In this document: in pieces, positions 9,716-62,770 of the stretch
How positions within the stretch are numbered: the first letter of the stretch is position 1
Layout of the letters: every line of letters begins with the position of its first letter
Assembly: GCA_964036665.1 (NCBI GenBank)
Contig: OZ038533.1
Location: 18,348,575 to 18,412,574, forward strand
Length of the DNA stretch: 64,000 bases
Source of the DNA: Gordius sp. MW1
Taxonomy: Eukaryota > Nematomorpha > Gordioida > Gordea > Gordiidae
Direction of reading: 5' to 3'
Notes under the pieces: model-generated
What the model was told of the DNA's origin: nothing
What the model saw: the letters and a program-made list of their open reading frames with translations, nothing else
The model's database searches: none
Position numbers and translations under genes: made by a program

Positions 9716-9779
9716 TGATATTAATTTATTATATTTTATAAAATTGGTATACAATTTTTTTTAAATAAATTAAGAACTT

Positions 9780-11130
9780 TGCCCCTCTCCCTTTTTTGTC
9801 CCGTTGGTTCCCCCCCCCCTTATTATTTACCCTCTTTCTCACCAGAGGGGAGGGGTGATTTGCCCCCCCCCGTTTTTTTTACCCTTTTTCTCACCAGGGG
9901 AAAGGGAGGTACCCCCCCCCCTTATTTTTTACCCTCTTTCTCACCCTCCGTTTTTTTACCCCCCCCCTCCCCTTATTTTTTACCCTCTTTCTCACCAGGG
10001 GGGAGGGCGGTAATTTTCCCCCTTCTTCTTTATACCCTGTTTCACACCTGGGGGGAGGGGGGTAATTTGACCCCCCTTCTTTCTACCCTCTTTCACACCT
10101 AAGGGGAGGTGGGGGATTTGACCCCCCCCCCTATTTTTTACCCTTTTTCTCATCGGGGGGGGGGGGGGAGTGATTTGCCCCCCCCCCCTTATTATTAGCC
10201 CTCTTTCTCATCCGGAGGCCCCCGCCCGGGTGAAAAAGAAGGTAAAAAAAGTGGAGGGGAGACAAATCACCTCCGCCCTCCCCCCCCCCCCCCCCCCCCC
10301 GGTTGAGAAAGAGGGTAAAAAATGGGGGCCCCTGGTTAGGAAAAGGGTAAAAAATGGGGGAAGGGCAGATCCCCCCCTCCCCCCTGGTGAGAAAGAGGGC
10401 AAAAATAAGGGGGGGGGGCAAATCACCTCCCCCTGGTGAGAAAGAGGATGAAAAATAGGGGGGGGGGGGAAATCACCCCCCCCCTCCTCAGGTGAGAAAG
10501 AGGGCAATAAAAAATGGGGGGACAAATCACCTCCCCCCCTGGTTAGGAAGAGGGTAGAAAATAGGGGGGAGTGGCAAATCACCCCCCCCCCCTTCTCTTT
10601 CCCTCCTGGTGAGAAAGAGGGTGAAAAATAAGGGGGGGGAGGCAAATTACCCCCCCCCCCCTCAGGGTGATAAAGAGGGTTAAAAAAGGGGGGGGGGGCA
10701 AATCACCCCCCCCCCCTTCTCAGGTGAAAAAGAGGGCAAAAAAACAAGGGGGGGGGGGGGGGGGGGGGTGGGGCAAATAACCTCCCCCCCCCTCCCTCCC
10801 CCCTTGAGAGAAAGAGGGCAAAAATAAGAGGGGGGCAAATCACCTCCCCCTGGTTAGAAAGAGGGTGAAAAATAAGGGGGGGGGGGGCAAATTACCGGTA
10901 AAAAAAGGAAGGGGGGGGGGGGCAAATCAACCCCCCCCCTGCTTCTCAGGTGAGAAAGAGGGCAAAAAAACAAGGAAGGGGCAAATCACCTCCCCCCCCC
11001 CCTGGTTAGAAAGAAGGTAAAAATAGAGGGGAGGGGCAAATCACAACCCCATCCCTTCCCCCTGATGAGAAAGAGGGCAAAAATAAGGGGTGGGGGCAAA
11101 TCACGGGGGGCAAATTACCCCCCCCCCCTC
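9780..11130. repeat. G/C-homopolymer minisatellite with internal strand inversion
   Basis: About 1.35 kb is made of units of roughly 40-60 bp combining a conserved core (ACCCTCTTTCTCACC or its complement GGTGAGAAAGAGGGT), a TTATTTTTTA/TAAAAAATAA segment, a GGGGCAAATCACC segment and long runs of C or G. From 9780 to about 10210 the core reads in the CTTTCTCACC orientation. From about 10225 to 11125 it reads as GGTGAGAAAGAGG. The switch lies near 10210-10230, so the array is a large imperfect palindrome. The long open frames here are artefacts of the low-complexity composition. Confidence 0.85.
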
Positions 11131-11546: not shown

Positions 11547-12970
11547 TATTAACAAAGTTGTAGTTCCCTTTTTATTTTTTATCAAAATTTACATTAGTTT
11601 TATAAAAAAAACAGTGTTTTGTTTATCCGACTTTTCGTTTTAGTTGACAAAACATAAACAGGGTGTTTAGTCTGGTTTTCTTAGTCGAACTCTAGGCTTA
11701 GTGGAAATTTGAAAAAATAAATTAGAGTCGACCGTTAGTCCTAATTAAACCAAAGGTGACCATACAAAAACCAAGTCGTTTTACTACTTCAAATTTCTAT
11801 AAATACGAAAAAATGAAATTTGATGGACTATTAGGAATAAGGATATCAAAAAATCGATTTCCTTTTTTAAATTAAATAAATTCTCCATGTCATGAAGGTA
11901 TTTTGATAACTTGTTTAACATAAATATTTTGGCCTTTTAGAAAATTATTTGCTTTCTATATTAAAAACGTAAATGTTTTAAAGCAAAGGATCTAGATATT
12001 TGCCTATCCTTTGCCGTTTTTTATTATGAAAAGGCTTTAATTCAGTTCCTTTTTTCACACCTAGCTATTAGAAATTCTACTTTTGGCAAGGATTGGGAGG
12101 TCTGAAAGGACGCGCCTGCCCCTGGTCTTCCAAAAATTATTTTCGAATTCTAAACGAAATTTGTCGGTTTTAGCATACCTGTTTTCCAAAATTAAGGATT
12201 TAAGTTTTAAAAAGTTTTAAAATTCCTGAATTTCTATAATTGCTCTTGACCTAGCATTTAAGTAAAATTTTTAGTGTTTTCAATTCACTAATAAATATAT
12301 GAAAAAAATATCATACACAACATCAACTCATCCCAAATATTTAAGAAAAAAACGTTGCCGTTGCCTGTATCTTCTAATAAGTCCTTTTATTTCTCACAAC
12401 TATATAAAATATATTATATCCAATACAAATTACATTTATGACAGCAAGGACTGCAAAACTGATATTTAAAAGAGATTTGCAATCAAATACTAAAGAATAT
12501 TACATTAAATCCAATAAAACATTATGAATTTACGTGTTGTTTTAATGTGGTTTGATTTAAATTGTGTTTATGCTTTATTACATTAAAGAAAATTTAAAGC
12601 AAAGAGATAAAAATGGTATTGAAGAGTATTGTTATTAATTAATTATTTGTACAACATCATGTTTAAATCATTTAAATGCGGTTATTAACCTTTCAAATTA
12701 CGTGCCTAATTCCTGTCAATAATATTTGAAAGTGCAAAATAATATGTTTTTTGATCTTGCAAAACCAATTTGGCAAACGATTAAAGATTTATTTTACCTT
12801 TACACTGCCAAAATTCACAGAATATTTTTAATTCTTACTAATTTTAATTATTTTAATTAAATTTTTATAAATAAAACAGCTCAGATTAGCCAAAAATCGG
12901 GGGAAATGTACTTTAATAAGAGAGGCGATGAACTTTTAAATATTTGGGAGATCTTATAAACAAATCATCA
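11547..12970. other. Intergenic sequence upstream of the micro-exon gene
   Basis: AT-rich; no ORF of note. It contains the presumed 5' flanking sequence of the gene beginning at 13048. Confidence 0.45.
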
Positions 12971-12973
12971 CAC

Positions 12974-12982
12974 TATAAAAAG
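12974..12982 (+). promoter_or_regulatory. TATA box of the micro-exon gene
   Basis: TATAAAAAG at 12974-12982 is a consensus TATA box placed 66 bp before the ATG at 13048-13050. It would put transcription start near 13005 and give a short leader. The surrounding sequence has few other TATAAAA matches followed by G. Inferred, no transcript evidence. Confidence 0.5.
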
Positions 12983-13047
12983 GCAATCTAAATTTAACAT
13001 TTAATTAAGTTACAATTATAAAATACTTGCTTAAAATACAAAAAACG

Positions 13048-16000
13048 ATGAAGCTTTTTAGCATTATCCTAAGTACCTTGTTCCTCGCAAATGTCCTATC
13101 TGGTAAATTTTAAAAAGTTTAATGTGTACGTATAATATCAATGCAAAAACCTTTTAGCTCCCACAACTGGTAATTTAATAATAAATATCTTAATAATTGG
13201 GGCAATATTGTTATTTAACTGTGTGTTTTTCACATTTTTATAGATCGTGTAGTTGAAGCAGTTACCCAAGCAGGTAAGCTCCTTTTCCATACAATTTAAT
13301 ATTTTCACTTTGTGAAATAGAACAGATCTCTCATGTTGTTACAAGCAAAAATTCATTTTTTTAATTCTGACTACAGTAAATCGAGCAAATATGAAATCTA
13401 TATTTTTTATCAATTAACGCCCAAATCTGCAGCCGCTGGTGAGCGAATATAAATTTTTTGGCTTAATTCTAGCTCATAATTTTAATTTTTCAAATGTATA
13501 TTTTGTTTTACAACGTTTTAATTAATATAATTTATCCCCTAAAGTTGTTAACATTCAAAATGATCAACCAGCTTCTGGTAAAAATATTCTATAAACATAT
13601 TTATTAAAATAAAAATTCTATTATGGTGTTTAATTATGTCTTATTTGTTTATTTTTGAAAGAACATAATGTTTAAATATTTTAAACGAGATATCTATAAT
13701 TTTTAATGTATAATAATATCAATTAATGACGATTTAATCCCAAATGTAGTAGATGTCACTGCAGAAGGTAAACTTTAATTAAAATTATTTTTAAAAAAGG
13801 ATATAAAATTATATTATTTATTTATAGTTTCAGAAATTCAAACCGACCAACCTAGTCTTACAACTACCCCCGTCACAGGTATGTACATTATTAAGATTAA
13901 AGTATAAACAAACAAATCTATTATATTTGTTTTCATTATTTTTTTTTAAAGCTGTCAACGCATCTGGGGGTATAATAATTCTAACCTTCCGATTTGATTG
14001 TCAAAATTTTAAAACTATATTATTTGGAACACTTCAAAATAAATAACATTGTTTTATAGTCACTCATGAGGAGGGTAAATAATATATAATAATTATTACT
14101 GCAATGTGAATAATAAAATTACATAACTCTAATTATTATTTTAAATTATATTTGGCGGTTAGTGCAAAATGATGGACCTGTTACAACTTCAGCCCCTCTT
14201 GCTAGTAAAACAGTTATTATTACCAGATAAATATTAGAATTAATATATTTAATTAAAAAATTTGTCAATGGAATGATTAAAAATTGAATTTGCTCGAAAA
14301 ATTTGATTTAGCTAATGGTACAAGTATTTTTGACGCTTGAAATTTAAATCCCTTTGATAATTAAAAATATTGAATTACAACTTTTTTATTAATTCTAGCT
14401 CCAGATCCAGATCATGAACGTTTGGGCTGATTATAATTTTGTTTGAATATATTAAAAATACTGAGAAAATTTTTTATTACTTGTTGTTTCATTAATTTTC
14501 TTTTTAGAATTTGATTTCGGAAACGTACTTGTAGTAATAGAGCATGGTCAGGAACTCAGGGGTCTTGCAGGTACACTAGGTCACATATATAACCTGTTAT
14601 TGAATAGAAAAATTTTTTAATAGTTACTAATTGTTCGCTTTGTTTTAAATCACAGTTAATGACACTACCACAAATATGTTAAAATTTTAAAAACAACATT
14701 CGGTTTTAATTTTATAAAAAAAATTTATTCGAACATCAAACAGCTGCATCGAAAGGTATTACTAAAAAATAAAATTAATTTATTTAAAAAACCCAATATC
14801 TTGTGTAGAAGTCCAACACGATGAACCAGCTAAGGAAACACGCCCTGCAGGTATTATATTGCAAAAAATTTAATTTATATTCTGTCTTTAAAAATTACTA
14901 ATAACCGTATTGATCGCTGGTTATTTATATAGTACGATATCTCCTAGCACCTGCTCCAACCACTTCTGAAGGTAAACATTCTTCCTTAACAAACCTCGAA
15001 AGCCTTATTGTTAAATAATATGTAAAATGCAAAAAAAATGTAACTTATTATAGAGCTTCAAAATGACGAACCAGCTGCCAATGCCACAGCTCACGCACAC
15101 TGTATGAGAATTTTGCATTTAGTTGTATATTTAATAAAGATATTAATTTATCACAAATTTTATATTTAATGTTATGTTTAGCTAACAACACTGACGGTAT
15201 AATGTTCCTTAACAATAGATTAAAAGTTTAATTTATAATTTAAGGCTCCAAATATTGGGATAAACATTCTTTATTTAAATGTTTTAAATATAGCGGTCCA
15301 AAATGATCAGCCAATAACTATCACTGCATCAGGTTAACAATAGCTTTTATAAAGCTTTGTCACCTATCTCTAGTAAATAGTAACATTTTTCGTTTATTTT
15401 TTATAATAAAGTCAATGAGACAACTACACGTTAGTATAAATTTAAATTTATAAAATTATGCCTTACTAATATTTAATTATATTTAATTATTTTAGACGTG
15501 CCTGAGGAGGAAAGTATAATCTTAATTATTCTTTCAAATATGATAACCCCCGTTTATATCTATTAACAGTCGTTTTTATTTAAACTCCTTTATAAATTAT
15601 AGCGTAATTGAATAATATAAATTAAACTAAATTGAACTTAATTTCAACGCATTATATAGGACCACAGAACGATCATGCCCATGATGTTACTACTACACTA
15701 CTTGGTAAATTATAGCTTTAATTAAAATTATTAATTACATTTTATTTGTATCCTTATTTCAGCAAATGTAACAGTTACAGGTATAACAACGTTTTAATAG
15801 ACATTAGTAGCTCCTCATAATGACGAAGGTGATTAGATAGCAATTACATAAATAAAAGCATAACAAGATGGTCAAAGCAATTCTTTATAGGATGTTTAGG
15901 GTAGAATCTATGATTAAAAATAAAAATTTTAGTGTAGCAATTACATTTGGTGACCTTTTTCAGTTCCAATAACATGTAAATCAATCGAACTTTTGTAAGC

Positions 16001-16388
16001 AACGGATAGATCTTAATTAGACAATAATATTTATAATATAAGAAGCAGAGATGTTTATAATATAAATACTAACTTTTTGTCCACTTTAAGTATGTATTTG
16101 CTTAGTCTGTGCCTCTATAATATTGGTTTACATATATAACTTATTAAAATCTTTTTTAGTGCATTGCGGTGAAGGAGTCACCACTGTTGCAGGTAAACAG
16201 CCTAATGTAATGCATATGTCGCTGACTTGAATTAAATTTCCGCTGCTTCTGTTTTTATGTTTTGCGTTATAAAACCTTTTTCAATATTCTTCATTTCTAA
16301 TTATTTGAAATAAATTTAATTTATTTTGTTTAATAAAAACTAACTAGCGCCCACAAACCAAACAGAAGATGCTCTAACGACCGTTTAA
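13048..16388 (+). CDS. Micro-exon gene for a secreted Thr-rich protein (MEG-like)
   Basis: Exon 1 (13048-13102) encodes a signal peptide, MKLFSIILSTLFLANVLS. Then follow GT..AG-bounded micro-exons, all multiples of 3 with phase-1 junctions: 13158-13169, 13244-13273, 13433-13438, 13545-13577, 13750-13767, 13828-13878, 13952-13969, 14060-14074, 14163-14204, 14399-14419, 14508-14570, 14744-14755, 14809-14850, 14933-14971, 15054-15101, 15182-15196, 15294-15332, 15412-15429, 15496-15513, 15660-15704, 15763-15780, 15808-15828, 16160-16192, last 16348-16388 (TAA). The sum is 753 nt, 250 residues. Modules of the type (V/I/L)QND(Q/E/G)P recur in exons at 13545, 14163, 14809, 15054 and 15294. Several N-x-T sequons and many Thr suggest heavy glycosylation; one Cys is visible. 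Introns are 50-330 nt. Odd points: the 15781-15807 intron is only 27 nt, the 14420 donor is weak, and a possible 22-nt exon at 14656 is out of phase and left out. Architecture matches schistosome micro-exon genes; no sequence homologue is recognised. Splicing is predicted by eye. Confidence 0.75.
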
Positions 16389-16736: not shown

Positions 16737-18130
16737 CTAGCTGACCCGGCAAACGTTGTTTTGCTATATACATTAAGATTTCTAGAAGATACTATAAGTG
16801 ATGTGCATGCTCATCGTTATGCCTCGATCATATAATGAGCGATTAAAATATAATTGTCCAATGGGAAATAATTCACGAACTTATTGTAGGAAGAATTAAC
16901 ACGCTAAGCACAAAATATAAACACATAAAGCAAAGTACTTAACATCAAATTTTTTATTGCTTTGCTTTACACATTTTGCCTATATAAATATACTATCAAA
17001 TAAATTAATACATGCCTTTGCCACAGGTTTGTTTTTTTTATTAAAAACTTTTTTGGCCCTACCGCAAAATCACGATTCTGGCAAATGGCCGTTTTCGGAC
17101 TTCAATCAAAACCCCAACCCGCCCTGGAAATCTGTTTTATTTTTGCGCCTGAACATAATTTAGCGCGTCCTGCTTTTCACTTATTTGGGCAAACTACAAT
17201 TCTTTTATTTGAAATACAATTTTCTTTAATATAATAAAAATATTTAATTAAAGGATGGATAATTATTAAAAATATTCTATGATCGACCACGTAATAATAA
17301 TGGCAAAAATTGCATAATTTAAATTTTATTTATTTAAATTAAATAGTTGTTAAACCCCAATATTTTGATCGTATACTGTAACATTTTTATTATACTTTTA
17401 AATATCTAATTCGAGAAAACTTCAACCTTGTATGTATGACGTCATTATTGTATATGATGCTAAAAATGAAACTGGCTAGGAAATGGTCGATATTTTTAAA
17501 ACTAAAATGAATTTTAGAAATCTGAAAAAACTATTTTACCCCTGGCCGCCCTGGGAACCTACGGGTAAAGTTTCGCGCTAATAGGGCAGGTAGTTTCAGA
17601 ATTTAGCCCTTACATACATACATACATACATACATATATACATACATACACTTTACTTTATATATATAGACTAGCTGACCCGGAAAACGTTGTTTTGCTA
17701 AAAATACAATTTTCTTTAATATAATAAAATTCGAGAAAACTTCAGCCTTGTATGTATGACGTCATTATTGTATTTGGTGGTTTAAATGAAACTGGCCGGG
17801 AAATGTCCAATATTTTTAAAACTAAAAGGAATTTTAGGATTTTGAAAAAGCTATTTTACCCCTGGCCGCCCTGGGCATCTATGGCTAAATTTTCGCGCAA
17901 ATCGGGCCGGTAGTTTCAGAGTTTAGCCCTTTTTTAAAATGTAATGTCCGATATTTTTTAAACTAAAACGAATTTTAGAATTCTAAAAAAGCTATTTTAC
18001 CCCTGGCCGCCCTGGGCATCTATGGCTAAATTTTCGCGCGATTCGGGCCTGTAGTTTCAGAATTTAGCCCTTACATACATACATATATACATACATATAT
18101 ACATACACTTTACTTTATATGTATAGATTT
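16737..18130. repeat. Dispersed repeat with GACCCGG(C/A)AAACGTTGTTTTGC start, two units
   Basis: CTAGCTGACCCGGCAAACG starts at 16738 and a near copy starts at about 17671. Both units share a long segment (GAGAAAACTTCA.CCTTGTATG through CCCCTGGCCGCCCTGGG to GTAGTTTCAGA.TTTAGCCCTT) and end in CATA/TATA microsatellite followed by CTTTACTTTATAT. The second unit contains an internal tandem duplication of about 130 bp (about 17795-17930 and 17942-18072). The first unit is longer because of about 450 bp of extra sequence at 16770-17220. No coding capacity is visible. This looks like a tandemly arranged non-autonomous element; its class cannot be named from sequence alone. Confidence 0.65.
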
Positions 18131-24739: not shown

Positions 24740-27545
24740 GTGACTACTCTTCATCTTCATTGAGGGCCAGAGGCCAGGTGTCGGAAAATGCCTTATAATT
24801 GTATTTGGCTATTAAAATTCCTATTATTTGGCGCAAAAGAAAACTTGCTGAGTATTTTCCTTCGGGAGATCTCTTTCCCATCAATTTAAAGAAGGCTAAT
24901 GCCTGTTTGCCAAAAGTGGCAGAACAAGAAGCCACGATAGGGATAAAAATTTTAGAGGGAATTATATCACGGTATTTATGAGTTTTGCGTGCTTCCGCTA
25001 GAGCTAATGAGTCAGCGTTATTGTTAGAGGGTGCAAATACGTCGATGCAGGTAAAGTCCCAAGATAGGAACTTACCATACTCCCATGGAATTGTGGATGT
25101 TCCATCGGGGCGCATTCTACCCTCAAGAGTGGGTTCAGATGGTTAAAGAATAGAAGGGAAGCCGGCTTTTAGTAAAGCGGTTTGAATCAAAAGGTTATTC
25201 TTTTGATGGCGAATGAAACGGAATTTGTAAGTTTACAATGTAAGGGGTGGTGGGCCCAAACATCAATTTGTTTCTTACAATTTTTACAAGTCAATTGCTT
25301 GTAAATTAGGATCCCCAGTCTCAAGGCGATCGCGTAAGTAATTTCGGGGCTTGAGAGTACGAGCCCAGAGAACTTGCTTGGAATGCATTTCAGCCATTCG
25401 TGACCAGAGTCAGTCGTTAGTGACCTGAGATTGAAATGCTGTACGGCGTCACAACTCGAAAGTAGGTAAGCGACGGAGCGTGACACTATACTGGCATCCC
25501 AATCGCGTTGTTTGACTGAATCTGGAATAATGGCTCCTGGCATTACATTTTCAAGCCATGATGTTAAAGCAGTTTGCGTTAAAAAATCTTCCGTATGGGT
25601 GGTCAATTTAAAAACGAGATCTTTAACTAGATTGAAAGACGAGAGGAAGGCTACTAGACTAATGGTCAAAGGGGATCTTATTCCTAATCCTCCAGATTTA
25701 GTTGGAAGTATGGCAAGTAACCAGTTAGTATCATTAAAAGATAAGTGTAAAATTTTTTCTAGGAGATTTTTAATTGTGGATTCGTAAAATTAAAGAATAT
25801 ATGTAAAAAAGCAGCGGCTGATCTAAATCCATGCTGAATCTTGGAGATATTAAAAAAGTTTTTTATCATAAAAAAAGCGTGATGTATTGGTAACAATTTT
25901 AAAAGTTCCATTTATGAGGCCAACAAAGCTAAATGTTTACTTAAAAAGTCCTGCAAGCACGGAGATCCGCCTATGGGTGAACCGAGCATAGAAAGTCTTT
26001 CCTTAGCTACGGTGGAATAAGGTTTAAAAATCGAATATTGGTCGCAAGTAGGTGGTCGTAAAATTTCGCATTTGCCATCGTTGAGAGATAGATTTAAAGG
26101 TACACAATAGTCTTTGATGATGTTATGGCTTTAGCGACCTGATCATAGCTGCCCGCCAAAGTCGCATCATCTAGGTACCATACATGTAATGATAGGTCGC
26201 ACGCACTGATCCTTATTTTGGTTAATAGGTTTCTTTATCCCGCAACAAAATAATGGTGGTCATAGGGGATCACCTTTTTCAAATAAGATTATGATGCAAT
26301 CTTTATATTTTGTTCATTCCAATTCTTAATTTCCAATTCTAAAACACGATGATGAACTCTTTGTATTTGTTCAGGATGGGATTTAAAATATGAGGAATAG
26401 GAATAAGGGGAGATATTGAACGAGCTGCATAATAAAGGGACACCCTCTTCCCATTTAGGAAGAGGGGTAAAATTATTAAACTCCTTTTTACTACATAGAA
26501 TTTTACCTAATTTATTTTGTATCCGAGAATTAAATAATGAATTAAATCACACAAGAATTAAAATTATCAATACGATCACACGCGTATATTAAAATTACTG
26601 ATGCGTGTTCATGTTGATAAACAATCAAATATGGGGAGAAATAAATAAATAAGTATAAGCGCGTCGGGGGGAGGGGGGTAAAGTCACACACGTACTGAAA
26701 TTAAATAGAAAGTAAAAGTATCACTATGTACTTAAAGTTACAGGAAAAGGGGTTACTCAGTGAGTATGCCTCTGATAGGCAGATGTACTTCTCGTATAAG
26801 AGATAAGATCAAAAGATCCGACAATGTTAGGAAATCTAACAATAAATGTTGAATTAATCGAATGAGATTTTTTTGTTTTACGAGGGGTTGGGGGAAATGG
26901 GGAATCCACGTATCAAGGGATACGATAACCTTGTTGAAGGCCCTCAGCAGATTTAATTATAAAGGAGCCAAAATTTAAAAGGGATGGTGATCCGTAACTT
27001 TCTAAGATATAATTTGCTTATTGGGGAAACTCTTCTAAAAAATTTTAAAAACGTTTCTATTAAGCTGATTGAAGGCATTTGAGAAATCCAGTTTCACTAG
27101 ACAGTGGTCGGGATGAAGGTTTTGTATTGTGATACCTGCATGGCTTACAGCCTCACATCCTCCCTTCACACTAAAGCCTAATTGATGAGGTGAAAGGGTA
27201 TTGGTCAATGAGGGTTTGATTCGTTTGCAAATTATTTTAGGAATTAAACGGCGGAATACACTCCCAATGGCGATGGGTCTTAAGGAATTGTTAGGTTTTT
27301 TTAAAGCTAAAAGACGTGCCCCAAAGAGAACTGGCCTTATCTCTTGAGGGACATTGGCATTTACAATTAAGTTGCAAAGATGGGTAATTGATACAAGCAA
27401 TGAGTATGAAAAATTGTTCTTTAGATTGATTAAATCTTGCAAGAAGTTAGGTATGCCATCTAACCCTGCAGAGGAATCTAGGGGAAATGAGTTGATAGCT
27501 TCACTAATTTCTTGGGGAGAAAACAATGTAACGCTTCTGCATTCT
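24740..27545 (-). pseudogene. Non-LTR-type retrotransposon RT with C-terminal nuclease-like domain, decayed
   Basis: On the minus strand, 27526-27035 encodes an RT segment: SPQEISEAINSFP, GLDGIPNFL, then LRPIAIGSVFRRL, HQLGFSVKGGCEA and VKLDFSNAFNQLNR, which carries the catalytic aspartate of RT block A. Downstream, 25669-25187 holds a linker with a Cys-rich end (CKNCKK and HHPLHC). The last segment, 25115-24744, has RPDGTSTIPW, WDFTCIDVFAP and a YRDIIP...IPIVASCSATFGKQALAFF run. In related animal elements the RPD..(20)..WD.T..D. pattern ends the ORF and resembles a PD-(D/E)XK nuclease core; that comparison is from memory of the family. Frame breaks between 25800 and 27000 show it is dead. 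A second, poorer copy lies at 44440-45850. Confidence 0.75.
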
Positions 27546-27611
27546 TGAATAAATAATACACCACAATTTTTTTATTGCGAATAATCTTCAACTTTGTAAT
27601 AAAATTTTTAA

Positions 27612-36875: not shown

Positions 36876-37042
36876 AGGGTAATAAAAGGTGTTATTGGTA
36901 ATAAAGGTGTCTTAATTAGGTCAATATACAAAAAATAAGTAAGCAAACAAATTGGTATATTTCAAGGTCTCTCTGTGCAATGCTAATTATGACTACCAAA
37001 TATTTTCGCATTTTTTATTTTTAATTAGCTAAAATCAATCAT

Positions 37043-40000
37043 ATGCGCTCTTTATATTTTACACTCTTTATAACGGGGATAGTAGGAAGCGTTTTAAGCA
37101 TCGATAACAAGTTTGCTGATATTCCATTTAGAGTAATATGGAATTCTGAAACTCAAATTTGTAAAAGATTGCTCGGTAGTAATTTGGATTTAGACAAATA
37201 TGACATTGAAACCAACGTTGGACAAGCTTGGAGCGGAGAACTCATTCAACTTTTTTACTTCACCAAACTAGGATTGTGGCCTAGAATCTTAAATAGCTTA
37301 CCGATTAATGGCGGGGTCCCGCAAAAAATGGATATGTCACAGCATATTATAAAACTGCTAAAGGATTTAAGCGCCACTGTGCCCGATGTTGAATTTGAGG
37401 TATTAATTAGATGTCAACTGTTTTAGACACTTATTTTAAAAAAGGTAGATGTCGAAAATTTTTGTCGCCCTAAATAATCCTCATATCGATACGATCAGAT
37501 AATTATTGACAGACTGTTTCACTAAGAAAAGCTGATCTTTCAGCTAGTGTCTTTGTTGTTGGGATATGGCTTGACTTTATATAGATGCAAATGACAAAAT
37601 CACAATATTAGTAGAATAATTATGCTTTACAACTATTCTCTCCATATTGTTTTCTAAATTCAAATTTTTAATTTTCCAAGGGTACTGCTATAATCGATTA
37701 CGAAGAAAATTTGCCATTGTGGAACGACATACAAAGTGGTTCTTACCTTGTTTATGCCGTAAGAAAATGCGCTTTACCATTTAAGTATTGTCGATTTAAA
37801 TTGGGTTATAAAATTTTGGCTTGACATTTTTTAGATCGTTTAGTTTCAAAAAGGTGGCATCGTATTATTGGATTATGGTGCAATATTTTATAACCAAAGG
37901 GTTGTGAGAGAATTAGGATGTGTGTAATCGCCAGTCATTACTTTTGGATAACAATGCCATGTCGACAATAAGATGTGCATTTTAAAATCGATGGAAGCTA
38001 ACTTTGTAGAAGTTTTAGCTCTAAACATAGCATACTAATACCAAAATTACTAAAAATATCTACTTCGAGGAATAACAACAAATCTAACTAACATTGATTT
38101 TACTAGATAACTGCATGTGATATTTTAGAATGCATCCTTACAATTTGAAAGAGAAAATAATCCAACGCTCAACGACGAAAAGAAAATTGCAAATTACGCT
38201 AAAGCCAGCTATGAAAATGGTCATAAAGCTTTAATGTATGAATCAATAAAAGCGGCTATACAAATGAGGCCTAACGGATTATGGGGTTATTGGGGATATC
38301 CAATGTGTGCAAGGTAGGTTTATCATTTGGCAAGCTTTTAAACGATTTGATCAGCTACAATTATTATTTTACTTGTAATATTCAAATGTTTAATGATATA
38401 TAAAGTGTGATGTAGACATTCAGCTCATAGTTTTTAACAATAATATAAATCAGTTTATTTTTCCTGTCATAATCGCTAAATATTTAACCCTGGTGTGTAG
38501 TTAAAATAGATAAATATTTCGGTTTTCTAAAGGAGATTTACTGAATATTTCTGCGACATCCCCAACCAGAGGAAAAATGACAAAACTCAATGGTTGTATG
38601 ACTCAAGTACAGCCCTATACCCCAATATATACCTAAATGAAAAAGCGATTCCAGACTCAAATAATAGGGCAAACTACATATTAACTAGTATATCTTATTT
38701 TTTTATACTAATCTTGTATCTTATAAAACAATTGTGAGTAATTCATGAAAATTAAGTTAAGCCATTGATATATCTCTTTGCAAAAATTTTAGTTTATGAA
38801 CGTTCTCAAAGTCTAATTATTGTTCGAACTCTAATAATGCTATGGGCCATGCAATTCAATAGGTCTGATCGAACTATTGCACAGGAAACTTAATCGCATG
38901 TTAATGCTTGAATAAATCTTATGAGATAATAACTTATTCTTAAGGCATATTCCTAATTATTAATGGTTAAAAAATAGTAAGATTTTTCACACGGGCAATC
39001 AACTGGTTAATTGGTACTAAATATTCGCCGTTAAGCTGTGCAAGTGTTGAAATATGGTTTTAGCTAAGAATAAGTTTAATGAATACTTAGAAAACTTACA
39101 ATCTCTTATTTCATTGAAGGTTTTGAATTAAAATCAAAAAGTTTATTAGATAATGAAAATGTAGTTTATAATTTATCTTGCTAATCTATACAGACTTAAA
39201 GCTCAAGACAACTTTTTAATCTAGTACAAAATTCTTGTTGTTTTCTATAGGATTTAATCTTGTAATAGGTCAGCGCATCTCTACTAATTAAATAAGCTGT
39301 AAATATCATTCTTTATAAATCTATGTCGATCAAAGTGCTTACCATTTCAAGTGATAATTTTAAATGTTTAGTATCAGATATCAAGATGGTTTAAGCTTAA
39401 ACAATTTAATAGAATGGCTATAATAACAATACAATACACAAGAAGCAATATTTGTAAACTATATTTAGCCAGCTAAAATGAACTATTTTGAGTTTTTTAC
39501 CTTCTCTTAGTAAAATCTCTTCTACCCAGCGTTGCTGAGTCATTTCCTTTATAATTCAACATAAATAATTATTGTGTAGCCACGCAAAATGGTGAATTTT
39601 AGCTGATTTTACTATTGATTAAATAATTGAGATGATCGTTAGGTTATAAATAAACAAAAAATTAATTTTTAATGATTTAATTTAACAATTATAGTAATGA
39701 ATGAAGCAATGAGGGTTTCTAACAATAGACCTGGTGGCCCTATCCCAATATATGCTTACGCTCGATATCATTATGAAAAGGCTGTGTTTCCTTCGTTTTT
39801 ATCAAAAATTGACATAGAAAATACCATAGGTCAAGCGGTTGATACTGGAATGAATGGGATAGTAATAATTAAAACAAAACTTGTTTTTCCCTTTAAACAA
39901 TTTTGAGTAGATCTTCTTAAATGATGCAAAAAAGTTTTATTTAATCTTTTATTATTTCAAAATCAACTGGCCAATTAATATAGCAAATTTCAATTCATTG

Positions 40001-58040: not shown

Positions 58041-60528
58041 GTTAGGTGGCCCCCTTGATCTGCAATCTACATCCACATTAAGATGTCTGAACATTGACTT
58101 CCACCCCTTGTCCTTGAACGATTTGCTTAGGTAGAAACTGACCCCTTTCTACAATCGTGACCCACTGTAGAATAGTTTCTCCTAACTTCCGAGCTGTGGT
58201 TTCCTGGCGAAGCGTACCTTTACTCTTTTTAGCATTTGTGCTACCTCAATGCGCTTTCCAATCAGCATGCTCACATTCCAGAAGTTATTCGTATTCTATC
58301 TACAACTTATTTCCTAAGCCGCCTCAAACCTAGTATATTTTTGACAGTCCACGGGTGGGATATGCTTAGATTCTGTTGTAAAATTTGTTCAAAACTATTA
58401 TGATAGTGAAGTTGGTTTTTACAGCCAGTCTCCGACCTGACGTCTACCTACACTTTTAGCACACGGACTTGGGACCATCGTAGGTAGCGATTAAATTCAA
58501 AAACAATAAATTTAAAACGAGTAAAATAAAATTGCAGGTAAAGGTGCAGCCAATATCTAATTAAAAAATAAAAAATATTAAATTTCTACTCGATTTTATT
58601 AACGAAAAATTAAGAGTCTAATTATCCAATCTCCAAGGGTGATGCAAAGCTTGACAATTTTAGACCAATTGGTCAAACACCTTTATTCATATGATTTTCA
58701 GTTTTGCTTAATCCTGTTAAAAAGCGTAATTGTCTTACGCCTGAAATACACGAATTTTGTTAGTAAAGCGCTTTAAATCGATAGATTACATTAATTGCGC
58801 ATTTTTTGACCATGATACTATTATTTATATCATATTTAAAAAAACTATTTTAGAGCTTCTATAATTTTGCATTTTATCTAGGCTTTACATTTACACAAAG
58901 ATTCAACTTAGAGAAACATTTTGAGTAGCAAAGGAATGTTTAATCCATAAAGTAATAAGCTTGATAACTTTTCTTTTTAATTTAGACAGTTTTTAACTTG
59001 ATGCTTTATAATAACTTGCTTGTTAATTAAATGCCAAATACTATAAAATAATCTCTGATTTCTTATGTTGGTCTAAATAATCAACTCAATTTACAAGCAT
59101 ATATTTTTCAATTTGCGAAAAAAAATTTCTTGCATGCAATTTTGTAAATGTGTTTGCATAAATGCCTAAAGATTATGTTTTACTCTATAATATTTTATGA
59201 ACATGTGTTTGATTTGCTTAAATATTGTGGATACTTTTAAAAAATAACAAATTTTTTGATAAAATAATAAAATAAAGGCATTTTTTATATATTCAAACAA
59301 ACTTAGTATTAAAACTTGGATATAAAATTTGTTAAGTTTTTTTACAAAGCTCATATGTAAAATTGTTGTTGCTTTGAAATTTTATATATATGGGTTCATA
59401 ATGTTATTAACACTTTTATTTTTGTGCATTAATCATCTTTATTGTTTATTGGTAGGAATTTATTACACAAAATTCATTTCGTTAATTAAGCTTTATAATT
59501 TGTCTTCTGCATGAAAATAATTTTATAAAGCACAAACCTGCATTCAGCTCAGATTTAATTTCAATTTATACAATCTATAGATTAAAGTATTTCATGTGCA
59601 ATTTTATTCTAAAATTTGCATCAAAAAATATTTATGCTGGGATTGCATTAAGGTGTAGGATTTTTGTATTGTATAAAGTAGATTAAAATGAATGAGTTCT
59701 ATTTGACATTCTAACTATTTTGTAAATTTCATATTTAAACTTAAATAAAACTTGTCTATGGCTACGTAAACCTAAGTTTATCTAGTTATAAAACAATTTT
59801 TTAAATTATTAATAAATTCTGTAATACTTAATAACCAAAATATCTAGGAGATTATATTTAATCTTAAATATGGAATATATGATCAGCCAATCTGTATTTG
59901 TACCCATAAGCTTAAACTCTAACTTGGCATAATAATGGAGTATTGACAACCTTTGTAACTCAGCATTACTTTTTTATGTTTTTATTCTACCCATCATTTA
60001 AGTTTACAGGCACAGTTCTCAATTTATTAGGTCAACTGGAACCACGAAGTCAGAAACTTATTAATACTTTAAAACATTGCTTTGTTGAACTAATGGAATT
60101 TATAGATTTATTATTTATTTTTCTCAATGGTAACTGTTATAAGTTTGAATTACATGACATTTGCTTTAAAACTTCTAGATCATTTATCGTTTATCAATAG
60201 TTAAAGAATTTATTAAACTTATATTGAATGTGTTAATCATTAACCTGTTTCTCAGCCAATCAATAAATTTTAAAATCTTGTATTATATATAACAATTCAA
60301 TAATCATATATTTATTAACTTAAACCCTTCTTCATTAACTCTTTAGCTTTGGCTTTATGTTTATAGAGGCAATAATAACTAGTTTTAATATTAACTAGTT
60401 ATTAATTTTTATAATATCCTTGGAAAGTTTATGATATAAAGGCAATATATTCAAATCCTCTTATGAAAATATTTTCTTCCTTCATAATTTGACTCCAACC
60501 ATATGCTTTAAATTTTAATTACTTTTTT
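58041..60528. other. Long AT-rich intergenic or intronic stretch
   Basis: No exon with recognisable similarity was found. If the SETD2-like exon at 60531 is internal, part of this region is its upstream intron. Confidence 0.45.
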
Positions 60529-60540
60529 AGTTGGTACCCC

Positions 60541-62770
60541 ATGGCAGCCCCTAACGCAAACGAAAATGAGCCACCCAGTTATGTTGCGTTGCCAAATAAT
60601 TTGGACATTTCTCCTATAAATAGTCTCATCGAAGATTGTTTACGCCAAGTGGGAAATGGGTTTATAAGTCCTCAACCCTCGAACACTTTGATCTTTAGCA
60701 AAAAGCGTGGGACGATCGAGGGTAATGGCTTTTACAGAAAGGGTAAATTGGCTAGACGTTTAAACGGAAAACGGCGTTGGCTGGGATTTAAATCCTGCCA
60801 ATTCACTAGCTCTACCCTCAATGGCTACCACCACCCATGCAAGCTTTCTACTTCCTTAGGGAGCAACTTAGAATCTCATTTTTCAGGCAGTTTCGAGCAG
60901 CGCGATCGTACGTTTAATCGTAAAACCGCTTCGAGCGCATTACAAGCTCAAAGTATTTTAGGGTTCTTTCATGGTCGTACGGTAGGTATGCATTTATTAA
61001 CGATAACGAAATCCATAATCCCCGACCCTAACCCTCGTATCGACCCCACAAAGGGTCATCTCGTATACTCTTGGCTAATGGGCGCATCCGAAGGATTGTT
61101 TGGGCTTAATCATTTTCGCGACGAGACAAAGCTAGACGCCCTAACCGGAGATCTCCTAGCTAATTTACTATCTACTCCTTCATCCCCTACAAATTCTACT
61201 AAAACTCCCTCTATAGAATCACCGCCCTGCTTTTCCTTTAAGAAGGGTCTGGGCATCGATTCTATAATCGGGAAAATTTGGTCTTCCAAAAGGCTTAACC
61301 AACAATCGTGCTTACCGGCACCGCTTAAATCATCGCCAAACGTGGTCACAACTCATAATGGCAGATACCGCAAAACATTCTTACCCAAACGTCATTACAA
61401 AGGCAAACCACCGCCCAAAGCTAGCGGTAAGGGCTGGGTCAGAGTCGTAGTTCCAGTTAATTCCCAGCTATTATCTCTCGACGAAAATTCCACCTATTGC
61501 CCAACATCCAAGGGGACGCCTCCTCAATACGAAACGCGCGCCTTCAAACGACTCAAAGATATGCAAAATAACAAGGGCGCCGCCCCAAATTTCGCCCTGG
61601 AACCGGTAGAGCTATCCAATTCCTTGGATACTCTATCGACCGCCCCCAGTCCCGTTAATGCTAGTAGCGCCTCTCGCGGAAGCAATTACGATGCCGCGAT
61701 AGAAAGCGTCATACTTAAGTTGTGTCACAATGACATGAAAGCCAGTTTAGTTACGAAGAAAAAGAATGACTCTGCAGGAGGATTTGAACTTAACGCTGGA
61801 CTGGGAAGCGCCAGTATAAAAACCGAACCCAACGATACGTCTAATTCCGATATTTGTCAATCCACACCAACTCCTCAAGTCAATGAAGTAGGCACTCCCC
61901 TCCCATCCCCAAGCTCAATCATTCCTTCCCGGCGAACGGCTAAAGAGGAAATTCCCCACTTCGAACATATCGATGAAAATATTTACGCGTACGACGAGGA
62001 AAAGTATACCATTTTTTTGTGTAGCAAACGTGTGGTAACTGGTCTAAAGGCCTCAATTTCGTTTTGAATAGTTGGTAACACCCTATCCTACCTCCTCTAT
62101 GAGATAACCGTGGGATATTTAGATATTTTAAGGGCTTTAAAACTAATTATATTTACCTGAAGTTTTTTGAGGTTACGTGATCCTTCTTATATATTAAGGC
62201 TCTAATATACAGCAAAATCGGCGATTTTTAATAGTTTTTTATTATTATGGGGAGACCTTATAACGGATTTAATAATTTGATGGAGGTTGTAAGGTTAAAC
62301 CCGAGGTTGGAACATTTTATTTAGTATAATTGTCCATAACCCTTATTAAACCATTTATTATATGTATATGTATGTGAGCTTCCTTATAATAAATACACTT
62401 ATCGAGTTTTTTAGTATAATTTACCTTCTCTTCAGCAGTGACAACAAATTTAATTAATTATCGCTTGACGCATTTTTAAGGGATTTAAGTAAGTGTTTCA
62501 TTCAAAATCCCTTTTTTAAACTTGTTTGCGCAGATCGACGGATAAAAATGCGAGGAAACAAGCCAAACGAATGATATGCAATTGCGAAGCCCCCGTCGAT
62601 CCGTTATCACGTGACAAAGCAGACGATAACGACGTTGCCATAGCAACTACGACGACAACAAAGGATCCCGCCCTCACGGCGAAAGTAGCCTCCCTCGTTT
62701 CCGCCATCTTCACCCCCAAATCGGGCGGATGTGGGCCCGATTGTTTAAATCGTCTGCTCATGATAGAATG
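60541..62770 (+). CDS. SETD2: SETD2-like histone H3K36 methyltransferase, 5' part with AWS domain (partial)
   Basis: Two exons are visible. Exon A ends at 62003 (AA|gtatac). It either starts at the ATG 60541 or continues from an earlier exon through the acceptor at 60529-60530 (ACTTTTTTAG), the frame being open upstream. Exon B is 62534-62770 (acceptor TTTGCGCAG, donor TG|gtattt). The phase-2 junction joins HIDENIYAYDEEK to STDKNARK. Exon A is a long Ser/Pro/Asn-rich low-complexity N-terminus of about 487 codons. Exon B is the AWS zinc-binding domain: MICNCEAPVDPL, then GCGPDCLNRLLMIE(C). The CLNRLLMIEC wording fits Set2/SETD2 better than ASH1 or NSD. About 35 extra residues (Thr/Ala-rich) lie between the two Cys groups. 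The SET domain must lie beyond the window. The product would methylate nucleosomal H3K36 co-transcriptionally in the nucleus. Codon composition is much less AT-rich than its surroundings. Confidence 0.82.

Follow-up and report, generated by a model that had tools for sequence, protein, structure and literature searches.

Tiny symmetric phase-1 exons behind a signal-peptide-like leader: a micro-exon gene family in the hairworm Gordius sp. MW1

A stretch of 64,000 nucleotides (nt) from the genome of the hairworm Gordius sp. MW1 (contig OZ038533.1, in the following C7, positions 18348575-18412574; "the window") was found to contain a micro-exon gene on its plus strand, between positions 13048 and 16388. 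The gene starts with a signal-peptide exon, continues with 25 internal exons that measure 6-63 nt each, and closes with a terminal exon; together the 27 exons form a reading frame of 753 nt, which encodes 250 amino acids and ends with a TAA stop codon at 16386-16388 (Table 1). It is near certain that the gene and its micro-exon architecture are real. Furthermore, it is probable that the gene, one of a multigene family, is live, that its frame-neutral cassettes can be included or skipped, that it works similarly to the micro-exon genes (MEGs) of flatworms, and that its product is most likely a mucin-like, host-facing secretion. The initial annotation of this DNA had claimed a signal peptide and about 24 phase-1 micro-exons of a length divisible by three, which sum to 753 nt and end at an in-frame TAA. 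All of these features were reproduced, and the best model has 27 exons in total.

All 26 junctions are in phase 1, and each of the 25 internal exons has a length divisible by three. Fifteen internal exons do not exceed 27 nt, 18 do not exceed 36 nt, and 24 do not exceed 51 nt; exons of up to 51 nt make up 594 of the 753 nt, and exons of up to 36 nt make up 327 nt, which is under half. The introns are 30-184 nt long (at least 100 nt in 9 of 26). In a model of 26 exons and 744 nt that was built by hand, the GC content was 0.46 in exons and 0.21 in introns. A chain program added one exon of 12 nt and shifted one acceptor by 3 nt, which led to the 27-exon model; in this model the exons 11, 12, 24, and 25 are uncertain. 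Tandem NAGNAG acceptors were found at three exons (6, 15, and 24). It had been predicted that any exon could be skipped without a frameshift, and indeed all 25 internal exons are symmetric. The frame stays open across 350 of the 351 possible exon-to-exon junctions, while a single junction creates a stop codon.

The exon boundaries had initially been picked with the phase in mind, and therefore the region was rescored with generic parameters. To find the best phase-1 chain, splice sites were weighted generically and a plain composition was assumed for the exons, with no training on the gene. The real region reached a score of 127.3, and 22 of the 26 exons of the hand model were recovered exactly. 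A randomization had been proposed in the initial annotation, and in 300 dinucleotide shuffles the mean score was 11.8 and the maximum 30.1. As a further control, 352 overlapping genomic pieces from outside the family were scored on both strands, and the maximum of the 58 pieces with matched GC content (0.22-0.31) was 52.5. The real region therefore exceeded all shuffles and all GC-matched pieces, in agreement with the view that such a chain is hard to get by chance. Irrespective of GC content, 4 of the 352 pieces reached the real score; these have a GC content of 0.38-0.43, at which the composition term inflates the score. A chain model trained on the gene (score 457; at most 77.6 in 30 shuffles and at most 241 in 36 neighbouring pieces) was dropped as circular. 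The trained chain overran the gene at a low intron penalty, and a higher penalty was adopted for exon prediction in the window gene and in the copies described below. The top-scoring control piece overlaps a repeat array at 9725-10702, which contains long Pro/Phe/Ser-rich open frames on both strands.

A blastn search within the same genome (212 Mb, 12 contigs) revealed eight further copies besides the window copy (W), distributed over the three contigs C1, C5, and C7, and five of the nine copies sit within one 160-kb stretch of C7 (Table 1). The donors 1-3 and the acceptors 2-3 are GT and AG, respectively, in all nine copies. In the nine-copy alignment the identity of the six distant copies to the window copy was 77%, 62%, and 70% for introns 1, 2, and 3, and 77%, 86%, and 82% for exons 1, 2, and 3. 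The gap fractions of the same introns were 0.10, 0.07, and 0.40, versus 0.00, 0.00, and 0.02 for the exons. Repeats are inserted in intron 2 of copies B, C, and D and in intron 1 of copy E. The signal exon of copy A is shortened by a deletion of 1 nt, and this copy is possibly damaged. A search for splice-site patterns across the copies was partly too strict and produced false blanks (e.g., exon 16); only its positive matches were used. A codon pattern for QND had 15 matches in the genome and 3 in a reversed control, and of the 15 matches 5 are located in W, P1, and P2 and 10 elsewhere. A micro-exon scan of 264 kb yielded 14 candidates, two of which passed a composition filter (one with a score of 1.0; the other starts 1.4 kb upstream of copy A and enters its exons); the scan missed the window gene, P1, and P2 because its leader filter was too strict, and is thus uninformative on the absence of such genes.

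Three additional observations were made at the copies. An exon-15-like match (80%) lies upstream of copy F (C5:17234883-17234955, minus strand) and is possibly a tenth, partial copy. A dispersed repeat of about 155 nt is present in intron 2 of B, C, and D (e.g., C7:1717885-1718037), and 34 of 40 scored candidates (2778 at first look) were its genomic copies. In P1 a late intron carries an insertion of about 4.5 kb (C7:18290143-18294664), the open stretches of which resemble a gypsy-type retroelement by eye.

The window gene was compared with P1 and P2 using the 26-exon hand model. Exons were omitted because splice sites were lost or the alignment was poor (exons 6, 10, 11, 12, and 15 for P1; exons 7, 10, 11, 12, 15, 19, and 22 for P2), so that 21 exons with 197 codons were counted for P1 and 19 exons with 157 codons for P2; exon 5 of P2 was retained despite an unaligned acceptor AG. 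None of the counted codons of either copy is a stop codon. All gaps in the counted exons have a length of 3 nt (three in P1, two in P2), one of them being shared and a second pair being located within 4 nt. Of the indels in introns, 7 of 30 (P1) and 7 of 50 (P2) have a length divisible by three. In the omitted exons, three 1-nt gaps (P1) and one 6-nt gap (P2) were found in exon 15, and P2 has a 35-nt deletion in exon 19 and a 3-nt gap in exon 7.

The ratio of nonsynonymous to synonymous substitution rates (dN/dS) differed considerably along the gene. Exon 1 has two synonymous changes and no nonsynonymous change in P1, and four and one, respectively, in P2, resulting in dN/dS values of 0 and 0.06 from few changes (2 and 5). 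For all counted exons the values were 1.22 (P1) and 1.02 (P2), and without exon 13 they were 0.76 and 0.67. Exon 13 has 16 nonsynonymous and 2 synonymous changes in P1 and 14 and 1 in P2, equivalent to values of 2.53 and 4.5. When seven copies were compared (P1 and A were left out, and non-independent pairs were pooled), dN/dS was 0.32 and 0.34 for exon 1 and the exon-15 type, respectively; exons 2 and 3 had a value of 1.27, and the exon-16 type, which comprises 24 nt with few changes, one of 4.13. These ratios show a contrast along the gene: nearly all changes of the signal exon are silent, the mature part is near-neutral, and one exon evolves far faster.

The internal exons follow each other in a repeating order, i.e., an exon with the motif Q[NTH]D (QNDxP), then an exon with an N-x-S/T sequon, and then an exon ending in Glu. 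A 22-exon composite of the long copies was used to quantify this order; it uses the P1/P2 form where the window copy has lost an exon, leaves out exons 1-4 and the last three, and permits the Glu exon to be absent within a cycle. All 21 neighbour transitions of the composite are cyclic, which was matched by none of 200000 permutations, with labels that were set after the exons had been viewed and with exon 13 counted as a Q position. With the window exons alone, 16 of 200000 random orders equalled the observed cyclicity. The copies W, P1, and P2 are long, expanded forms with many cassettes. Copies B-F are seemingly complete genes of about 71-94 amino acids (spliced by hand) with a single QHDEP cassette, and they end in an exon that is homologous to exon 17 and carries a stop codon. 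The loss of an exon by splice-site decay leaves the frame unharmed, as exemplified by positions 14656-14673, which lack the GT donor in the window copy. In the window model, exon 4 measures 6 nt instead of 21 nt, as the upstream AG is absent.

Exon 1 encodes a hydrophobic leader, which is common to the copies and was recognised as a signal peptide by eye, suggesting that the product is secreted. The mature part of the hand model has 229 amino acids and is rich in Thr (14.8%), Ala (14.0%), Val (12.2%), and Glu (9.2%); it has a net charge of -31, six sequons, and one Cys. Trp is absent from the predicted protein of 250 amino acids, and the product is predicted to be disordered. Among 5.8 billion proteins, neither the window protein nor an alignment of five short copies had a match at E ≤ 1; both were word-based searches, which distant relatives may escape. 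Sequence searches of Pfam and PDB also gave no match at E ≤ 1. The initial statement that no sequence homologue is recognisable was thus upheld.

Small symmetric phase-1 exons are also present in tropoelastin, titin PEVK, and other repeat proteins. The hairworm gene shares tandemly duplicated symmetric exons and disordered repeats with tropoelastin and titin PEVK, but differs by its internal exons of at most 51 nt in 24 of 25 cases, its cassette of QND, sequon, and Glu exons, and its rapid turnover between copies. For flatworm MEGs, a signal peptide, many tiny symmetric exons, and several gene families have been described (PMC10526429, PMC4350168), and in schistosomes the dN/dS of the mature part is above that of the signal peptide (PMC4350168), so that the mature part changes faster, as it does here. 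The hairworm gene likewise has an N-terminal leader (by eye) and symmetric internal exons throughout, nearly all of them tiny. However, the introns of flatworm MEGs span 0.1-5 kb, and their signal peptide is followed by a hydrophobic/aromatic motif, FL..F x6 W p (K/H/R) (PMC10526429), whereas the hairworm gene has introns of 30-184 nt and its protein has no Trp. In addition, the phylum differs, as the present genome belongs to the Nematomorpha according to its mitochondrial gene order and palindromes. The regular three-exon cassette has no counterpart in the MEG descriptions drawn on here (PMC10526429, PMC4350168). In 2015 MEGs were said to appear restricted to platyhelminths (PMC4350168), and no description of micro-exon genes in Nematomorpha was present among the matches listed in open-licence PMC full text.

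A second system for comparison is formed by the bicycle and megacycle genes of aphids, which encode putative secreted effectors, have many small internal exons of a single phase, evolve fast, and have few sequence homologues (PMC9168663). Putative secretion, small exons of one phase, and rapid change are thus common to both, but the exons of bicycle genes are almost all in phase 2 and encode CYC motifs (PMC9168663), in contrast to the phase-1 exons and the single Cys of the mature part found here. Because of the differences in phylum, motif, intron size, and phase, the hairworm family is a member of neither the MEGs nor the bicycle genes. Of the schistosome hallmark that had initially been noticed, the micro-exon architecture and the signal-peptide-like leader stood, while membership in the flatworm MEGs did not. 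The alternative suggestion of a new lineage for this architecture agrees with the finding that the animal is a hairworm and with the lack of a recognised homologue. We read the family as MEG-like and as having arisen independently in the hairworm.

The following mode of action is proposed. A small multigene family would produce acidic, Thr/Ala/Glu-rich secreted proteins with N-glycosylation sites and without a recognised domain. A constrained signal-peptide exon would precede tiny phase-1 exons multiplied from a three-exon cassette, and because of this origin the frame would be kept for nearly any exon that is included or skipped. The splicing machinery could thus include or omit nearly any exon, and exon skipping appears possible by construction. 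The exon subset would differ among transcripts and the number of cassettes among genes, and copies would come to differ through the number of their cassettes, through exons lost by splice-site decay, and through rapid amino-acid replacement in individual exons. Most likely, the product would be a mucin-like, disordered, glycosylated secretion of the parasitic stage, facing the tissue or haemolymph of the arthropod host. Hairworms are parasites of arthropods and steer their hosts to water (PMC10380579), and parasitism, the rate contrast along the gene, and the analogy to MEGs (PMC4350168) point to such a host-facing role. It is tempting to go one step further and propose that hairworms independently evolved a system of duplicated, combinatorially spliced three-exon cassettes that varies the glycoproteins secreted by the parasitic stage within the arthropod, as a convergent counterpart of the MEGs of schistosomes and the bicycle genes of aphids; this is put forward tentatively, as its chances appear nearly balanced.

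Several observations weigh against the reading of a live, variably spliced gene. Exon 24 would require a preceding intron of only about 30 nt. The nucleotide identity of exon 1 in the six distant copies equals that of intron 1, although exon 1 has fewer gaps, and therefore the contrast between exons and introns rests on the gaps and on exons 2 and 3. Splice dinucleotides were lost at 7 of 50 positions in P1, similar to neutral drift at 6.5% per site, with the losses being confined to five exons. No TATA stretch is present in P1 and that of A is altered, the cassettes were labelled in retrospect, and the dN/dS value near 1 of the mature part fits relaxed constraint as well. Last, all exons might be included constitutively.

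The latter point leads to the main rival, i.e., that the product is a constitutively spliced, disordered, mucin-like or structural secretion, for example of the cuticle, the egg string, or a gut coating, and that the micro-exons are the footprint of cassette duplication, like the small symmetric exons of tropoelastin or titin PEVK, with no regulated skipping. This explanation is rather doubtful, but has to be taken seriously: cassette duplication accounts for the exons without any skipping, and a Thr/Ala/Val/Glu/Pro-rich product with its sequons and its strongly negative charge would fit it. However, the fast and partly nonsynonymous-biased change of mature exons, above all of exon 13, and the turnover of exons between copies exceed the needs of a structural repeat, and the three NAGNAG acceptors, together with a possible GC donor, offer openings for alternative splicing. 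It is improbable that the window copy is a decaying pseudogene of a once-active family and makes no protein. Several exons have indeed lost splice sites between copies, the window copy has a dead exon at 14656-14673, and the damaged signal exon of copy A and the near-neutral mature part would be in accordance with decay. In contrast, the frame of the window copy runs open through all 27 exons with their 250 codons, the changes in the signal exon relative to P1 and P2 are almost only silent, the gaps in the counted exons all preserve the triplets, and upstream sequence is common to the copies. A divergent homologue of platyhelminth MEG families, acquired by descent or by horizontal transfer, would share the architecture and the difference in evolutionary rate between the signal peptide and the mature part, but is very improbable in view of the different phylum, the short introns, the lack of the MEG motif after the signal peptide, and the lack of a Pfam match or of a protein match at E ≤ 1 in a word-based search, which can miss distant relatives. 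That the chain of GT..AG islands arose in AT-rich DNA by chance or through selection by the reader is practically refuted, because the splice sites recur across nine diverged copies and because only GC-rich control pieces equalled the real score, while shuffles and GC-matched pieces stayed far below it.

A family of like design in a phylum of arthropod parasites, for which no relation in sequence to the MEGs was detected, would mean that the micro-exon architecture recurs as a solution among parasites and plant feeders. The molecules of host manipulation by hairworms are poorly known, and probably secreted proteins such as these would provide definite candidates. In annotation, tiny exons are frequently missed, as has been said of plants, and therefore the family may be absent from other hairworm annotations. 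Further hairworm assemblies are named for Acutogordius, Nectonema, Gordionus, and Gordius (PMC11603191).

TABLE 1. Elements of the micro-exon gene in the window (positions of the window) and further copies of the family in the genome (contig:position).
Feature	Position	Strand	Observation
Putative promoter and 5′ untranslated region	12901..13047	+	TATAAA at 12974; upstream sequence common to copies
Exon 1, signal peptide MKLFSIILSTLFLANVLS, ends in phase 1	13048..13102	+	Donor intact in 9/9 copies; leader judged by eye
Exon 2, 12 nt, APTT	13158..13169	+	AG and GT intact in 9/9 copies
Exon 3, 30 nt, DRVVEAVTQA	13244..13273	+	AG and GT intact in 9/9 copies
Possible extra exon, 24 nt, EQISHVVT	13321..13344	+	GC donor in window, GT donor in P2 and F; outside the 27-exon model
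Exon 4, 6 nt	13433..13438	+	Remnant of a 21-nt exon (13418-13438); longer form with AG in P1, P2, F
Exon 5, cassette Q exon, VVNIQNDQPAS	13545..13577	+	Acceptor AG unaligned in P2
Exon 6, cassette N exon, tandem NAGNAG acceptor	13750..13767	+	Splice sites lost in P1
Exon 7, Q exon, VSEIQTDQPSLTTTPVT	13828..13878	+	Partial alignment only in P2
Exon 8, N exon, AVNASG	13952..13969	+	Hand model and chain program
Exon 9, E exon, VTHEE	14060..14074	+	Identical in P1 and P2
Exon 10, Q exon, VQNDGPVTTSAPLA	14163..14204	+	Acceptor lost in P1, unaligned in P2; related exon predicted in A
Exon 11, N exon, 6 nt, uncertain	14312..14317	+	Donor not conserved in P1/P2; longer TNVT predicted in P1
Exon 12, E exon, APDPDHE, uncertain	14399..14419	+	Acceptor is AA in P1 and P2; weak donor
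Exon 13, 63 nt	14508..14570	+	Highest divergence among counted exons
Lost exon, VNDTTT, GT donor gone in window copy	14656..14673	+	Intact sites predicted in P1 and P2
Exon 14, AASK	14744..14755	+	TASE in P1 and P2
Exon 15, Q exon, EVQHDEPAKETRPA, NAGNAG acceptor	14809..14850	+	AG/GT in W, B, C, D, E, F (6/9); also predicted in A; donor GT lost in P1 and P2, acceptor AG lost in P1
Exon 16, E exon, APAPTTSE	14948..14971	+	Chain program and copy comparison
Exon 17, Q exon, ELQNDEPAANATAHAH	15054..15101	+	Homologous to terminal exon of short copies
Exon 18, N exon, SNNTD	15182..15196	+	Chain program and copy comparison
Exon 19, Q exon, AVQNDQPITITAS	15294..15332	+	Mostly deleted in P2
Exon 20, N exon, VNETTT	15412..15429	+	Chain program and copy comparison
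Exon 21, E exon, HVPEEE	15496..15513	+	Chain program and copy comparison
Exon 22, Q exon, RPQNDHAHDVTTTLL	15660..15704	+	Identical in P1
Exon 23, N exon, ANVTVT	15763..15780	+	Chain program and copy comparison
Exon 24, E exon, APHNDE, NAGNAG acceptor	15811..15828	+	Preceding intron of about 30 nt
Exon 25, VPIT, probable	15964..15975	+	Chain program, window and P2
Exon 26, LHCGEGVTTVA	16160..16192	+	Chain program and copy comparison
Exon 27, terminal, APTNQTEDALTTV, stop TAA	16348..16388	+	One substitution in P1; identical in P2
Copy P1	C7:18287271		89-92% identity to window; blastn
Copy P2	C7:18233223		82-92% identity to window; blastn
Copy A	C7:18218344		blastn
Copy B	C7:18205933		blastn
Copies C and D	C7:1712163 and C7:1717746		blastn
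Copy E	C1:2088988		blastn
Copy F	C5:17232915	-	blastn

The micro-exon gene is directly followed by dispersed repeats at about 16737-18130, which start with CTAGCTGACCCGG and contain TACATACA microsatellites. About 21 kb downstream of the gene, positions 37025-37426 of the plus strand encode the N-terminal portion of a GH56 hyaluronidase, the start of which resembles a signal peptide (Pfam PF01630, E 3.3e-20). The window further contains a reverse-transcriptase fragment at 27038-27571 on the minus strand (Pfam RVT_1, E 7.5e-9) and an open frame of 524 amino acids at 60493-62067 on the plus strand, which has no Pfam match. TTAGGG arrays were present at four of the six contig ends that were read.

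Contig 12 (14,798 bp) is mitochondrial, and 9 kb of it were read. The gene order is cytb and trnS2, next trnL1-rrnL-trnV-rrnS-nad1-trnL2 on the other strand, and after these cox1-cox2-trnK-trnD-atp6-cox3-trnG-nad3-trnA-trnN-trnS1-nad4L, with protein genes and rRNAs named by eye. Together with the inverted repeats described below, this order points to a hairworm, probably a gordioid; for the other class, the Nectonematoida, the mitochondrial gene order was stated to be still to be obtained (PMC10380579). The same 9 kb contain nine perfect inverted repeats of 17-108 nt, several of which are located within genes. Perfect inverted repeats in mitochondrial coding genes have been described as an extraordinary feature of the four Nematomorpha studied (PMC6649704).

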